In this document: piece after piece, positions 44,935 to 63,237 of the stretch
How positions within the stretch are numbered: position 1 is the first letter of the stretch
Layout: each line of letters starts with the position of its first letter
NCBI RefSeq assembly: GCF_031326345.1
Contig: NZ_CP133671.1
Location: 6,401,001 to 6,465,000, forward strand
DNA length: 64,000 nt
Reading direction: 5' to 3'
DNA from: Aureispira sp. CCB-E
GTDB taxonomy: Bacteria > Bacteroidota > Bacteroidia > Chitinophagales > Saprospiraceae
Translations under genes and position numbers: made by a program
Notes under the pieces: model-generated
What the model was told of the DNA's origin: nothing
The model's input: only the letters and a program-made list of their open reading frames with translations
Database searches by the model: none

Positions 44935-45939
44935 ATGGACGAAAAAATAACCGATCAATTCCAAGATCAAATGACTTCCTCTTGGGACAAAATTATGGAT
45001 AAGTTGGCTCACTGGGTCGATGCGATTATATTAAACTTACCCAATTTAATTTTAGCAATTCTTATTTTTACAATTGCTTATTGGTTGTCAACATATGTCA
45101 AAAATTGGGTAAACAAATTGCTTAGGAAACCCATAAAAGAAGCGTCTATTAGAGGCTTAATTTCAAATATTGCATCTATTGTGTTTATTACATTAGGGCT
45201 GATCTTAGCTTTAAATGTATTAAATCTAAATGATGTTTTAACATCTATTCTAGCAGGGGCAGGGGTAGCCGGTCTTGCTGTAGGTTTGGCTCTACAAGGA
45301 ACTCTAGCCAATACATTTTCTGGAATATTCTTAGCTGTTAGGGACGTCATTAGTGTTGGCGACTGGGTAGAGACCAATGGCTATTCAGGATCTATTGTAG
45401 AAATTGATTTAAGAAATACAAAGCTGAAAGAAGCAGATAATAATATTGTTGTCATTCCCAATCAAATGATTTTAGACAATCCTTTTAAAAATTACGGATT
45501 AACAACCAAAATTCGATCTACAATCAAATGTGGCGTAGCGTATGGCTCCGACCTTGAAGCGGTTCAAGAAATAGCTAAGGAAGCCATCAAAGAACTTTAC
45601 CCACCTCAAGGAGGACAAGAAATAGAATTTCATTATTTGGAATTTGGGGGTAGTTCTATTGATTTTCAGCTGCGTTTCTGGGTGAATGCAACGAAGAAAT
45701 TAACAGCTTTAGAAGCCAAAAGTAAAGCCATGATTGCTTTGAAGAAAGCCTTTGATGCCAATAATATAGATATACCATTCCCTATTCGAACACTTTATGT
45801 TCCTAAAATAGAAGACAAGGTGCCAGATATTGCTGGAGATCAGGAAGAAAAATGTGAGGAAGAACCCGAAAAAGTTCCTGAGAAAAAAGCCAGTGAAAAA
45901 TGGTTGGAGCGAGAAATTTTCAACCGAGATAAGCATTAA
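44935..45939 (+). CDS. Small-conductance mechanosensitive channel (MscS family)
   Basis: A 334-residue inner-membrane protein. Three helices lie in the N-terminal third: ILNLPNLILAILIFTIAYWL, ISNIASIVFITLGLILALNV and the pore-lining ILAGAGVAGLAVGLALQGTL, which has the Gly/Ala packing of TM3. The cytoplasmic beta domain starts at FSGIFLAVRDVISVGDWVE (the GDWV motif) with VVIPNQMILDNPFKNY, followed by the alpha/beta cage. The C-terminal 45 residues are Glu/Lys-rich and look disordered. MscS channels release solutes on osmotic downshock. It stands alone between long gaps. Confidence 0.95.
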   Translation: MDEKITDQFQDQMTSSWDKIMDKLAHWVDAIILNLPNLILAILIFTIAYWLSTYVKNWVNKLLRKPIKEASIRGLISNIASIVFITLGLILALNVLNLNDVLTSILAGAGVAGLAVGLALQGTLANTFSGIFLAVRDVISVGDWVETNGYSGSIVEIDLRNTKLKEADNNIVVIPNQMILDNPFKNYGLTTKIRSTIKCGVAYGSDLEAVQEIAKEAIKELYPPQGGQEIEFHYLEFGGSSIDFQLRFWVNATKKLTALEAKSKAMIALKKAFDANNIDIPFPIRTLYVPKIEDKVPDIAGDQEEKCEEEPEKVPEKKASEKWLEREIFNRDKH

Positions 45940-45952
45940 TATAAACATCCAT

Positions 45953-45994
45953 AAAAAATCGGTCTGTCATGTAGAATGGCAGACCGATTTTTTT
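45953..45994. terminator. Bidirectional terminator
   Basis: Long stem AAAAAATCGGTCTGTCAT / ATGGCAGACCGATTTTTTT with a 5-base loop. It serves both the MscS gene and the convergent isomerase gene. Confidence 0.9.
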
Positions 45995-46019
45995 ATGGAT
46001 AAAAGTATGTTTTCAAATC

Positions 46020-47972
46020 CTATTTAACCATACTTTTTAATACTTCCTCATTAATTTCAACAGTAAATTTCTCTTTTAATTTTTTAATGAGTTCTTTTTC
46101 CAAGCTATCTTGATAATCAGCAACAACATAGCCTCTTGCCTCATCTAATGTCTTAATAGATGGCTCGATAATCTCTTCTATTTTTGTAAAATACGTTGAT
46201 CCATCTTTGCTATACCCTTTGCTAACCGTTCCAGCTTTCCATTTCAATTTATCCAACTCCATGTTTTTGCCCTTCTCGTAAACGCCACTAGTTGTTTGCA
46301 CAATTTCACGATCTTTGTTAAACATAGCTTTTAAGCTCTCTGCACTTTTCTTTTTCGCTTTGGACTGGATTTTTTTAACCATTTTTTTATCATCTGTACG
46401 AAGTGTATAAAACGTTACGTTGGCACGTTGCTTCCATTTATAATTTTCTTTGTTCTCCTCATAAAATTTCTTCAAACCATCTTCATCGCTAGATGCCTTG
46501 TCCCATACCAGTTGTTTTTTTACTTCAAACAACAAAATTCCTTCTTCATATTCACGCATCAAGGCCTTGAACTCAGGATAACGTTTGTCCAACTGTGTTT
46601 CCTCGTAAGCCAAACATTTTTGGATGGCCAATTTCTTGATGATACGATCTACAGCAGCCTCAATCGTACGAGGTTGCTCGTTCATTCGCTCACTATGAGC
46701 ACGTTGAGCAATAGACATAAACTCGCGAACAGTTCCTTTCAAGTTTCCAACTGTAAACAAAGCCTTGTTTTCTAGGTCTTGATTTTTTTCTGCTTTCCAT
46801 TTGTAAGTCAAGAACGTATTATCTTTTTTCAACAGATCAATCAATTCTTTTTTCACAGCCTCATTCTCTTGATAATTTCCTTCTTTTTTGATATCCGCTA
46901 CCAAAGCATCTTGTATAATTTGGAAACGAGGCTTGCGCTTGATTTTATTAGTAATTTCTGACTTTACATCTTGATATTTAGGATTTTTGATTCCTTGATA
47001 ACGCTTTAGAATATGCCAACCTGCTTCAGTTTTTATTGGTTTAGAAATATTTCCATCTTGCTCCAATGCAAAAATTTCTTTTTCGAAGTCTTGTGCATAA
47101 TTGTTAATTCCAATCCATCCCAATTGTCCTCCTCTATTCTTAGTCGCATTATCTTGAGAATATTTACTAGCCAATTCTTCGAACTTACCACCCTCTTTTA
47201 ACACATTATACAACGAGTCTACTAGAGTTTTCGCACGGTCAGGATTTTTCTTTGTTCTTAGTAAAATGTGCGCTACTTTAATTCTTCCGTAAGCAGGGCG
47301 TACATCATCGACACGTACAATGTGGTACCCTTTGTCTGTCGTCACAATTTCCGAAAACGCTCCTTTTTTGGTTTCATACATTGCTGTTTCTAAACCATAA
47401 GGCAATTGCAAAGCTGTGAACCAACCTAAATTTCCTCCCTTTGCATTACTATATTGATCATCAGAATACTGCTTGGCCAAATCATTAAAGTTTTGAGCTG
47501 TCAATTCACTTTTAATTTTTTTAGCACGTTCAAAAGCTTCTCTTTTTACTTTTTCATCTGCATTTTGGTCCGCAGCAATAAAAATGTGGCTAATTTTACG
47601 ATCCTCTTTGCTTCTTTCGTATGCTTCTCGAACTAACTTTTCGGTAATTTCACGATCTGTCAAATATGTACTTGCCAATTGGCGTTTATATTGATCTTGC
47701 TCACGTTTTACTTCTGGCTTATCATTCAAACCAATATCAATACCTTCGGCAACTTGAAGTTTAAAGTTTACATACAAATCCAAGTACTCTTTAAGCGACT
47801 TTTCACTGTAATCTGCCTTTTCACCATTTGTTTTATTGTAAATATATTTGAACTCAGAAACATGAACTTCTTTGTCATTTACTTTAAACAGTACTGGGTC
47901 ATCTTGTGCTTGAATATTAGAAGTAAGCAATAACGCTACAGCCATAAAAATGGCACCTATACGATTGAGCAT
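46020..47972 (-). CDS. Periplasmic peptidyl-prolyl isomerase with two parvulin domains (SurA-like)
   Basis: A 650-residue exported protein (signal peptide MLNRIGAIFMAVALLLTSNIQA). An N-terminal helical chaperone-like region (about 23-120) opens with VLFKVNDKEVHVSEFKYIYN. Two parvulin domains follow: about 125-225 (ISHIFIAADQ, NAKGGNLGWFTALQLPYGLE, GYHIVRVDDVRP) and about 230-325 (VAHILLRTKKNP, NRGGQLGWIGINNYAQDFEK, GWHILKRYQG). A long helical C-terminal region (about 330-650) completes it. It probably helps fold outer-membrane proteins during passage through the periplasm. The C-terminal extension is much longer than in E. coli SurA but common in Bacteroidota. Confidence 0.93.
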   Translation of the reverse strand: MLNRIGAIFMAVALLLTSNIQAQDDPVLFKVNDKEVHVSEFKYIYNKTNGEKADYSEKSLKEYLDLYVNFKLQVAEGIDIGLNDKPEVKREQDQYKRQLASTYLTDREITEKLVREAYERSKEDRKISHIFIAADQNADEKVKREAFERAKKIKSELTAQNFNDLAKQYSDDQYSNAKGGNLGWFTALQLPYGLETAMYETKKGAFSEIVTTDKGYHIVRVDDVRPAYGRIKVAHILLRTKKNPDRAKTLVDSLYNVLKEGGKFEELASKYSQDNATKNRGGQLGWIGINNYAQDFEKEIFALEQDGNISKPIKTEAGWHILKRYQGIKNPKYQDVKSEITNKIKRKPRFQIIQDALVADIKKEGNYQENEAVKKELIDLLKKDNTFLTYKWKAEKNQDLENKALFTVGNLKGTVREFMSIAQRAHSERMNEQPRTIEAAVDRIIKKLAIQKCLAYEETQLDKRYPEFKALMREYEEGILLFEVKKQLVWDKASSDEDGLKKFYEENKENYKWKQRANVTFYTLRTDDKKMVKKIQSKAKKKSAESLKAMFNKDREIVQTTSGVYEKGKNMELDKLKWKAGTVSKGYSKDGSTYFTKIEEIIEPSIKTLDEARGYVVADYQDSLEKELIKKLKEKFTVEINEEVLKSMVK

Positions 47973-59703: not shown

Positions 59704-60741
59704 TTAGAAAAGCGAGCCTTGTGAACCATCATTGTTTTGTTTGGGCGCAATTCCCAAATGTTCGTACGCTTTAAGTGTTGTTTCTCTTCCTCTAGGCGTC
59801 CGCTTCAAATAACCTTGTTGGATTAAGTAAGGCTCATGTACATCTTCAACGGTTCCTGGCTCTTCACCAACTGCGGTAGCGATAGTCGTTAAACCAACGG
59901 GACCGCCTCCAAAGCTTTCGATAATCGTTCTAAGAATCTTATTGTCCATCTCGTCTAGTCCTCTATCGTCAACATTCAAGGCATCCAAACCATATTTAGC
60001 AATATTAGAGTCAATCGTCCCATTGCCTTTTATTTGGGCAAAATCGCGAACTCGGCGTAGTAAAGCATTGGCAATACGAGGCGTTCCTCTACTTCTTCTC
60101 GCGATCTCCTCGGCCCCATCTTGTGTAATTGGCACATTTAGGATATTAGCAGAACGTTTGATAATGTTGACTAATGTCTCTATATCATAATAATTGAGCA
60201 AACAAGTAATACCAAAACGAGCACGCATAGGAGAAGTCAACAGTCCCATTCGAGTGGTAGCGCCTACTAATGTAAATGGATTTAATGCAATCTGAATAGT
60301 ACGAGCATTAGGACCAGAATCTATCATAATATCAATTCTATAATCCTCCATAGCAGAGTAAAGGTATTCCTCAACGACTGTATTTAATCGGTGAATCTCA
60401 TCTATAAATAAGACATCGTTCTCGCCCAAGTTGGTTAGTAAACCCGCCAAATCGCCTGCTTTCTCCAAAACAGGACCTGAAGTCATTTTGATATCTGCTC
60501 CCAATTCATTGGCGATAATCAACGACAAGGTAGTCTTACCCAAACCAGGAGGTCCATGCAACAACACATGATCTAATGCTTCTTCTCGCATTTTAGCAGC
60601 CTCAATAAATACCTTAAGGTTTTCAACCAATTTTTTTTGCCCACTAAAGTCTTCCAGCATTTTGGGACGCAGTGCTTTTTCAACTGCCAATTCGCTGTTA
60701 TCATAATTCTCATTAGTAGGATCTAAATGTTCGTTCTTCAT
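59704..60741 (-). CDS. ruvB: Holliday junction branch-migration helicase subunit RuvB
   Basis: A 345-residue AAA+ ATPase that drives Holliday-junction branch migration with RuvA. Motifs: [20 protein letters not shown] at the N-terminus, Walker [21 protein letters not shown] (about 65-84), Walker [12 protein letters not shown], sensor [21 protein letters not shown], arginine finger and sensor II in [21 protein letters not shown] winged-helix C-terminus ([32 protein letters not shown]) completes it. Length is standard. Reading on its own strand it comes first in a run with the DinB-like and rnhB genes. A TATGTTTG box ends only 4 bp before the ATG, so its transcript might be leaderless (low confidence). 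Confidence 0.97.
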
Positions 60742-60832
60742 AATTCAAACATACAAAAAAGCAAACAAATTGTTTTAGTTTTTTTATAAATTTTACGGTA
60801 TTGTCCTCTGCTATTTTTTAGTTTTCACAAAA

Positions 60833-61066
60833 AAAGGGACTACTCAATTTAATGAGCAGTCCCCCACGCAATAGTTTTACCCTATATAAAACTATCTTCT
60901 TGAGTCGCGATATGCGAGCATGCAGGAGCCTCCTACACTTCCGACATGCTCCTATACCATTAGGATAGCCTACCAAAATGTGGTATTTTCTTAAAAGAGA
61001 GCCGCGACCAAACGGCTCTCCAAGGCAATTGTTTCGCTCGCAGCAAAACAAGTTTTATTTATTTTC
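60833..61066 (-). ncRNA. Candidate structured non-coding RNA
   Basis: On the minus strand, six hairpins follow within about 210 bases: GAGAGCCG / CGGCTCTC (61012-61019 with 60997-61004), TACC / GGTA, TCCTA / TAGGA, GAGCATG / CATGCTC enclosing AGGAGGCTCCT, ATAGTTTTA / TAAAACTAT, and the terminator GGGACTGCTCA / TTGAGTAGTCCC followed by T7. The block is visibly richer in G and C than its surroundings and has no supported protein. The 5' end is not certain; additional pairing (ATCAAC / GTTGAT with GCAC-AAAA-GTGC inside, about 61110-61165) suggests a start near 61175. Signature motifs of tmRNA, RNase P RNA and SRP RNA were looked for and not found. Confidence 0.6.
60834..60866 (-). terminator. 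Terminator of the candidate ncRNA
   Basis: On the minus strand GGGACTGCTCATTAA / ATTGAGTAGTCCC, then TTTTTTT. It is a strong intrinsic terminator, oriented away from the TlpA-like gene. Confidence 0.85.
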
Positions 61067-61779
61067 GCCTCTGTCTTATTCAATTACCACTTCGTAGATT
61101 AGTTTGCTATATATATCAACAGCACTTTTGTGCCACCAACACGAACGTACTCGAAGCGTTGATTCAACTGACTCGGCAATATTTTTTTTATAAAAATGGA
61201 AATGTTACATAAGTAGATTGGTATCAAGCCATCACTCGTGATGACAAACAGCTTACTTAAGTTTGTATAGGATTATACTTTGACAAAAACAACGTTATGT
61301 CTCAGGCTACTTATACACGTTCCATTACTCATTTTAGAGTGGTTTATTATTTTCTGAATAGTAAAAAATAAAATCGTGTAAAGTTTTTGCATAAATAAGA
61401 AGTATTAAAATAATTTGTTGTTGTTTTTGTTGTTCATTTATAATTATCTCAAAATAAAGTTGAGTAATTATTCTTGTGAATAGAAAATTTCACATTGGAA
61501 TACTAGCAATACGAAGGGAAATCTGAATATGCTGCTTCCTTTTTAATTTTTTTGTAATTTTTTTTAAAAGTTTTTTGCCATGCTATGTGCGCACGTCCAT
61601 TCTCTCTACTTCTTATAAGTTCTTCAAAAGAAAAATTCACACTTGCTCTAGCCCTCCCTTTTAAGTACTGAACTATGATTATCAAATATTTGATGTAATT
61701 ATTTTTGTTCCAATCAGTACTTTTGGCAGTCAACAAACATAAATATCCAAACATGTACATATCTTTATATAACTATTTG

Positions 61780-61787
61780 TATCTTTG
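61780..61787 (+). promoter_or_regulatory. Bacteroidota-type -7 box TATCTTTG
   Basis: TATCTTTGCCC fits TAnnTTTG exactly and is directed at the TlpA-like gene, giving a leader of about 180 bases. Confidence 0.5.
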
Positions 61788-61974
61788 CCCAAGATTTGAA
61801 ATTTTAGAGAAAATTTCGCTTATTCTCATCCCCACTATCCACACCTAGTGTTGGATTTTTACACCGTACCTAACCACCTTTAATTACTGACACGACCAAA
61901 GTAATTAAATCAATTGCTTCTAACGTAAAAGTACTAGAAGTTCATATTTACATTTGCACACTAAAAAATCAATC

Positions 61975-63237
61975 ATGAAACACTTTTTATACTTTGTCGC
62001 ATGCCTGCTTATTGGTTTCTATGCTTGCAGCTCACCCACCACCGTCAACCTTGATTCACAGTCCATTTTAAACCTAACAGAAGGAATTTGGCGAGGTGTT
62101 TTGAATATAGGAAATGATACCAATCCTTTAGAAATCCCATTTAATTTTGAAGTTGTTAATGATCAAAAAATTGTCATTCACAACGGAGATGAGCACATAG
62201 AAGTAACGGACATTAATTATAATGAGAAGAACAATAGCTTCTCTATCAAAATGCCTGTTTTTGGGTCAGAATTTAAGTTAGTTAATCACCAAAATAGATG
62301 GGAAGGAGAATGGTATAATTACAATAAAAAAGATTACAAAATTCCATTTGAAGCCATCAATAATACGCCTGAACGTTTTCAAAGTACTGGTACCTCTACC
62401 GAAGTTATAGCTTTAGAAAAAAGATGGAAAGTAACATTTAGCCCCAATACAGAAAATAGTTATCCTGCTATTGGTCTGTTTAATATTTTAGAAAATGGAA
62501 AAGCAACGGGGACGTTTTTAACTCAAACAGGTGATTATCGTTATTTGGAAGGTGCTTTAAATGGCAAGGAATTAAAACTATCTTGCTTTGACGGTGCACA
62601 CGCCTTTTTATTCAAAGCAACTCTGCAAGATGACGGGAGTTTGAAAGGTGATTTTTGGTCTGGCAATCACTGGCACGAACCATGGGTAGCTGTGCCTGAC
62701 GAAACTTTCGAGTTGGTCCCAATGAACCAATTAACTTATCTCAAAGAAGGCTATGACAAACTAGCGTTTCGTTTTCCAACAATCAATGGGGACACTATAA
62801 GCTTAGAAGACGAACGTTTTCAAGGAAAGCCAACTATTGTTCAAATTACAGGAACTTGGTGCCCTAACTGCATGGATGAAACGCGCTTTTTGGTGGATGT
62901 TTACAAAAAATATCAACATAAAGGCTTGGAAATTATTGCTATTGACTACGAAGTTGTCAATGATTTTAACACCTTTCAAAAGAATGCAACTCGCATAAAA
63001 AAACATCTTGGCATTGAGTATCCTATTGTATTTGGAGGACCTGCCAAAAAATCAGAAGCAGTCAAAACATTGCCCATGTTGAATCACATCATGTCTTATC
63101 CTACGGCCATTTTTATTGATAAAAATGGGGTTATCAAAGAAATTCATACGGGCTTCTCTGGTCCTGGAACAGGTGATTTATATCAAGAATATGTAGACAA
63201 AACGATTGCACTAGTAGAAAAAATGCTTGCGGAGTAG
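61975..63237 (+). CDS. TlpA-like thioredoxin-fold lipoprotein
   Basis: The ATG at 61975 gives MKHFLYFVACLLIGFYACSS with lipobox FYAC; a TTG seven codons upstream is the alternative. The product has 420 residues. The N-terminal half (about 35-260) matches the stand-alone lipoprotein at 18168 (GIWRGVLNIGND; KRWKVTFSPN; YLEGALNGKELKLSCFDGAH; GDFWSGNHWHEPW). The C-terminal half (about 270-415) is a thioredoxin-like TlpA domain with the redox motif GTWCPNCMDETRFLVDVYKK and the cis-Pro region MSYPTAIFIDKNGVIKEIHT. It should be a membrane-anchored periplasmic thiol-disulphide oxidoreductase; partner proteins are unknown. Confidence 0.9.
   Translation: MKHFLYFVACLLIGFYACSSPTTVNLDSQSILNLTEGIWRGVLNIGNDTNPLEIPFNFEVVNDQKIVIHNGDEHIEVTDINYNEKNNSFSIKMPVFGSEFKLVNHQNRWEGEWYNYNKKDYKIPFEAINNTPERFQSTGTSTEVIALEKRWKVTFSPNTENSYPAIGLFNILENGKATGTFLTQTGDYRYLEGALNGKELKLSCFDGAHAFLFKATLQDDGSLKGDFWSGNHWHEPWVAVPDETFELVPMNQLTYLKEGYDKLAFRFPTINGDTISLEDERFQGKPTIVQITGTWCPNCMDETRFLVDVYKKYQHKGLEIIAIDYEVVNDFNTFQKNATRIKKHLGIEYPIVFGGPAKKSEAVKTLPMLNHIMSYPTAIFIDKNGVIKEIHTGFSGPGTGDLYQEYVDKTIALVEKMLAE

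Follow-up and report, generated by a model that had tools for sequence, protein, structure and literature searches.

A structured RNA of approximately 125 nt, ending in its own intrinsic terminator and encoded on the minus strand upstream of ruvB (element B), has been predicted in four species of Aureispira. Comparison of these species makes it very likely that B is a real RNA, and equally that it is a lineage-restricted structured RNA missing from Rfam 15, with a second element, A, as an adjoining terminator unit. The best reading of the data is a lineage-specific structured sRNA or a 3'-end module, and not a leader of ruvB; as for the function, action in trans as an sRNA is the most likely choice, with roughly even chances.

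Materials compared

The window is a 64-kb stretch of a 7.39-Mb Aureispira genome (G000). It was compared with a genome of the same species (G060) and with three other Aureispira species (G006, G001, and G003, "the relatives" below). Around a 20-base word of B, the sequence of strain CCB-QB1 agrees with the window at every one of 150 bases.

Layout of the locus

The block under study lies on the minus strand between ruvB and a thioredoxin-like gene of the opposite orientation (Table 1). A sequence-only reading of this DNA had placed it at 60833–61175, downstream of ruvB; as ruvB itself is on the minus strand, the block is in fact upstream. The predicted minus-strand series of hairpins closed by a strong intrinsic terminator is indeed observed (terminator stem 60865–60834), and the whole block, 60825–61185, folds with z –5.2, none of 100 shuffles being equally stable. 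The proposed extent holds for 60829–61052 and fails for the upstream remainder: 61059–61175 has no conservation in the alignment with the relatives, and the fold of 61059–61185 is little better than chance (z –1.8; 10 of 200 shuffles equally stable). The suggested GC-richness of the block (0.43 at 60833–61060) is retained relative to intergenic DNA (0.29 at 61176–61950 and 0.22 at 60742–60832) and only to it, since ruvB has a similar content of 0.41.

The idea of a single RNA of 340 nt had to be abandoned, as in all three relatives A and B stand apart as distinct elements, their matches in the DNA search being separated by 650–738 bases. The only open reading frame over the block, of 77 codons (60818–61051), runs from A into B across their junction and therefore cannot be a conserved gene; a 77-codon protein was thus rejected, and the earlier opinion that this is a chance frame is supported.

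Table 1. Features of the ruvB upstream region, in window coordinates
Feature	Position	Strand	Basis
ruvB	59704..60741	minus	TIGR00635, E 6e-138
TATGTTTG, –7-type box, separated by 4 nt from the start of ruvB	60746..60753	minus	TAnnTTTG at this site in 7 of 8 Aureispira genomes
Element B, structured RNA of ~125–130 nt with its own intrinsic terminator at the end	60829..60958	minus	Fold, pair conservation, identity
B, terminator hairpin and T-run	60829..60865	minus	Both sides changed in 2 of 11 pairs, all cells (100%) paired
B, helix 2, 11-bp hairpin with AUAGG loop	60872..60896	minus	Nearly invariant sequence, compensatory changes absent, a single cell unpaired
B, helix 1, long imperfect hairpin with apical GUAGGAGG segment	60909..60958	minus	Both sides changed in 3 of 18 pairs, a single cell unpaired
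A–B junction; site of a 207–215 aa lipoprotein-like gene in three relatives	60959..60992	minus	Comparison with G006, G001, G003
Element A, hairpin followed by GAGAGCCG..CGGCTCTC hairpin with short T-run, terminator-like	60993..61052	minus	Identity, fold
Possible 39-codon frame (MQKLYTILFFTIQ...), upstream of A	61276..61392	minus	Kept in the window species, G006, G001
Thioredoxin-like gene, other flank of the block	61954..63237	plus	

Structure of element B

Conservation in related genomes, on which the original proposal had been made to depend, is observed for both elements: the window sequence is 88–95% identical to the relatives in B and 84–98% in A. The minus-strand fold of B has z –7.1 in the window, –4.7 in G006, and –5.9 in G003 (the three species folded), compared to –4.7 for the plus strand of B in the window. 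Stable folds as such are not rare in this DNA. In a scan of the window with 130-nt tiles on both strands (20 shuffles each, tiles not fitted to the ends of B), 29 of 1966 tiles reach z –4 or below, and the block's best minus-strand tile (60971, z –4.3) comes only 21st; it is conservation that sets B apart. The lowest z in the same scan, –7.9, belongs to 45891–46020 on the plus strand, where a long hairpin of the terminator type separates two convergent frames.

In the four-species alignment of B, 98.8% of 168 pair cells are standard and two are not paired. Substitutions on both sides are seen in five pairs (helix 1, three; terminator, two), compared to a mean of 1.5 in shuffled alignments (one of 500 shuffles is as high) and to 0–2 for slid structures. 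By another measure, the count of further pair types, the alignment does not surpass its shuffles (236 of 500 reach the same value). The covariation is thin, as just four species are available and helix 2 shows none. Insertions or deletions of one and two bases in B of G003 mean that no reading frame has been kept through it. B thus combines features by which intergenic sRNAs are recognized, that is, an intrinsic terminator, as read from the sequence, and non-coding character with conserved structure (frame-breaking indels and covariation); in the three relatives its position is moreover that of a 3'UTR-derived sRNA, at the 3' end of a coding gene with which it has the terminator in common.

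Element A and a lipoprotein-like gene

Element A also folds stably (z –4.0 in the window and –4.5 in G003). In the relatives, A and B are separated by a gene for a lipoprotein-like protein, so called from an N-terminal signal with Cys read by eye; no family is hit except for a sub-threshold DUF3108-like match of one of the two proteins scanned. Helix 1 of B begins at the final base of this gene's stop codon in G006 and G001, and at most about 10 nt beyond it in G003. Neither the window genome nor G060 has a match to the lipoprotein-like protein.

The protein (gene loci L031:1534–2157, L032, and L033:2312–2959) is only 29–40% identical among the relatives, compared to 93–98% for their RuvB. For example, between G006 and G001 the identities are 40% and 98%, respectively, pointing either to very rapid evolution or to allelic replacement between flanks that are conserved.

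The gene seems to have been lost in the window's species rather than gained elsewhere: judging by identities in four species, A and B diverge most in G003, which still has the gene, so that one loss is simpler than two gains. With the gene missing, A and B are now adjacent and resemble one long RNA.

Both elements have changed far less than the DNA around them. Between the window and G006, 6 of 122 positions differ in B and 1 of 57 in A, compared to 58% of 132 four-fold degenerate sites of ruvB. If only the sites where the other three species agree are considered, the window branch has one change at 148 sites of A and B (1/101 in B and 0/47 in A) against 11 at 33 four-fold sites of ruvB (p 2e-8 in Fisher's test, which treats sites as independent). 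The contrast recurs on the other branches, with counts of 2/149 and 5/27 for the G006 branch, 3/150 and 5/27 for G001, and 17/164 and 13/35 for G003. Therefore, no drop in constraint is visible where the lipoprotein gene is missing, although, if the loss was very recent, the window branch would be uninformative about a function independent of the gene.

Taxonomic distribution

A DNA search in 60 related genomes yields matches with E below 1e-8 only in the three relatives and the window's own genome, all from one genus; 42 of the 60 have some match at E up to 1, and the next best one consists of 33 terminator bases (E 3e-4, G022). A covariance model of B (R1), built from the same four sequences as the alignment, scores 137–155 bits in five of the nine Aureispira genomes (G000, G060, G001, G003, and G006) and at best 27.7 bits in the remaining four. 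The model of A (R2) scores 80–100 bits in the same five genomes, followed by 30.3 bits for a 45-nt match in G002. Reading the DNA by eye, we do not see A or B upstream of ruvB in G005, G002, or G007, and in G005 and G007 no structured replacement is found there (z +0.96 and –0.72). In G004 no ruvB match was found; eight Aureispira genomes have one.

In a family-wide draw of 199 genomes, which did not contain the three relatives and used stricter filters losing some weak matches, the model of B scores high only in the window's genome and the same-species one (147.8 bits). Hits are present in 48 of the 199, and the 46 genomes outside the window's species score just 16–28 bits; among the 16 non-own loci listed, the readable ones are, by eye, generic terminator hairpins. 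Wide conservation was rejected on these scores. A repeat family was rejected as well, no second copy being found in the genome above noise; an exact 19-bp match at G000:C1:2963372 is, by eye, in an unrelated context. Phage origin was rejected because one exact 20-base pattern is absent from the viral contigs searched.

Comparison with known RNA families

At gathering thresholds, Rfam models have no match over the whole 64-kb window, and the best of six matches in 60700–61500 has E 0.42 and is on the opposite strand. The known-family hit that was to speak against a new RNA is thus absent, and the suggestion of a structured ncRNA new to Rfam holds for B, by its fold, covariation, constraint, and lack of a family match, although not for the block as one unit. 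tmRNA or tRNA at the block was rejected, none being detected there. tmRNA and RNase P, which the earlier reading likewise had not recognized in the block, are located elsewhere in the genome, at C1:1895440 and C1:7061193, respectively.

A 6S RNA has the form of a single long hairpin with a central bubble. Both 6S and 6S-Flavo are structured, as is B, and the 6S-Flavo model, of 108 positions, is similar to it in length; they differ from B in that neither model matches it and in that B is patchy within the genus. RF00013 (6S) finds nothing in the nine genomes, its control giving a signal in 5 of 14 cases, and RF01685 (6S-Flavo) finds nothing either, but its control is silent; 6S and other Rfam families were rejected for want of a model match. 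The small SRP RNA model, RF00169, has no hit in the window or elsewhere in the window's genome; its control was positive in 11 of 14, not including Bacteroides, and since the latter was silent too, this model may miss the phylum.

Candidate promoters

The TAnnTTTG motif is the sigma-A –7 element of Bacteroidota, according to two reports (PMC7366714, PMC9723704). The box preceding ruvB (Table 1) reads TATATTTG in G001, is missing in G002, and is present in G005 and G007, which have neither A nor B. In the four species, the 500 nt preceding A and those preceding B contain no exact TAnnTTTG box; imperfect boxes with an upstream TTG are seen in the window and in G003, and are not common to both.

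Possible function of element B

As no common promoter-like box is found near B, transcription from upstream is favored, with B then released or kept as the 3' end of the transcript. Its action in trans would rely on stretches that are invariant and for the most part unpaired, namely the linker GCGACUCAA and the loop AUAGG. Their retention where the gene is gone would favor a role beyond termination. A would be a separate hairpin-terminator unit upstream of B, and loss of the lipoprotein gene in the window's species would have brought the two side by side. The comparison shows conservation, adjacency, terminator-like ends, a predicted structure, and the lack of a match to the gene in the window genome; transcription, processing, trans action, and loss as opposed to gain are all inferred. 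A more specific version, that B is a 3'UTR-born regulatory RNA that has outlived its parent gene, is made by read-through of terminator A, and acts in trans, is conceivable, although we hold it only tentatively.

The main rival of a trans-acting sRNA is a 3'-end module acting in cis, in which the terminator and stabilizing hairpins end the upstream transcript and shield ruvB from read-through, with no function in trans. This is a serious minority possibility, and it agrees well with the location of B 0–10 nt beyond a stop codon in the relatives, with paired changes preserving the terminator, with the conserved –7-type box belonging to ruvB itself, and with the lack of a common box near B. What it would not account for is the invariance of linker and loop, which termination should not need, and the persistence of constraint where the parental gene is missing. 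The same persistence (a single change at 148 sites of A and B in the window lineage, as opposed to 11 at 33 neutral-like sites) makes it highly improbable that A and B are functionless leftovers, the leader and terminator of the lost lipoprotein gene, even though this gene has no match in the window genome and G060, and identities, with the more divergent G003 retaining it, point to loss.

We consider it unlikely that B, alone or together with A, is a ruvB leader, an attenuator or riboswitch governing read-through into ruvB. The layout of a terminator-type riboswitch is present, upstream of ruvB, on the same strand, and with a terminator at the end, but TAnnTTTG immediately precedes ruvB in most genomes, including two that have neither element, B adjoins the stop codon of another gene in the relatives, and antiterminator pairing is not evident in the single folds examined. 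It is hardly credible that B serves this lineage as its missing 6S RNA or as some other housekeeping RNA. Rfam models do find neither 6S nor the small SRP RNA in the window genome; however, strong matches to B in just five of nine Aureispira genomes argue against any housekeeping RNA, and against the earlier label "6S-like" in particular, as 6S should be distributed more widely. Moreover, tmRNA and RNase P are located elsewhere, and B does not have the 6S form described above. For B, our best guess is a lineage-specific regulatory RNA, probably of a novel, if unremarkable, kind among the small RNAs of bacteria.

Similar RNAs have been described in the phylum. In Bacteroides thetaiotaomicron, 27 of 49 high-confidence intergenic or 3'UTR sRNAs are called strain-specific (PMC7366714), and, lineage-specific sRNAs being so common, the existence of one more is only moderately surprising. 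The B. thetaiotaomicron sRNAs, e.g., GibS, are short, located outside genes, and equipped with Rho-independent terminators, as is B, which is also lineage-restricted like those 27 and differs in being known from DNA alone (PMC7366714). Rfp18 of Flavobacterium psychrophilum is also a strongly folded sRNA conserved between species of one Bacteroidota genus; unlike B, it is known to be expressed, and its deletion lowered two metalloprotease mRNAs (PMC9723704). A limited literature search yielded nothing relevant on Aureispira or Saprospira RNAs or on a ruvB-linked RNA. If our reading is true, Aureispira, for which we found no prior RNA work, gains a structured RNA backed by comparison of species, and B would be a natural case of an RNA kept past the loss of the gene for which it had been the 3' end. 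With such a retained RNA, now without its parent gene, functions in cis and in trans could be told apart with no need for a mutant.

Other features of the region

The possible 39-codon frame upstream of A is 77–79% identical among the window species, G006, and G001; in G003 only the alignment reveals a counterpart, a weaker one, which the protein search misses; substitution counts made by eye are not clearly in favor of coding. In G060, approximately 190 extra bases are seen by eye near window position 61425–61440, with a CACGAAGTAGCACCGCAG-like stretch resembling the sequence near G000:C1:5808399.
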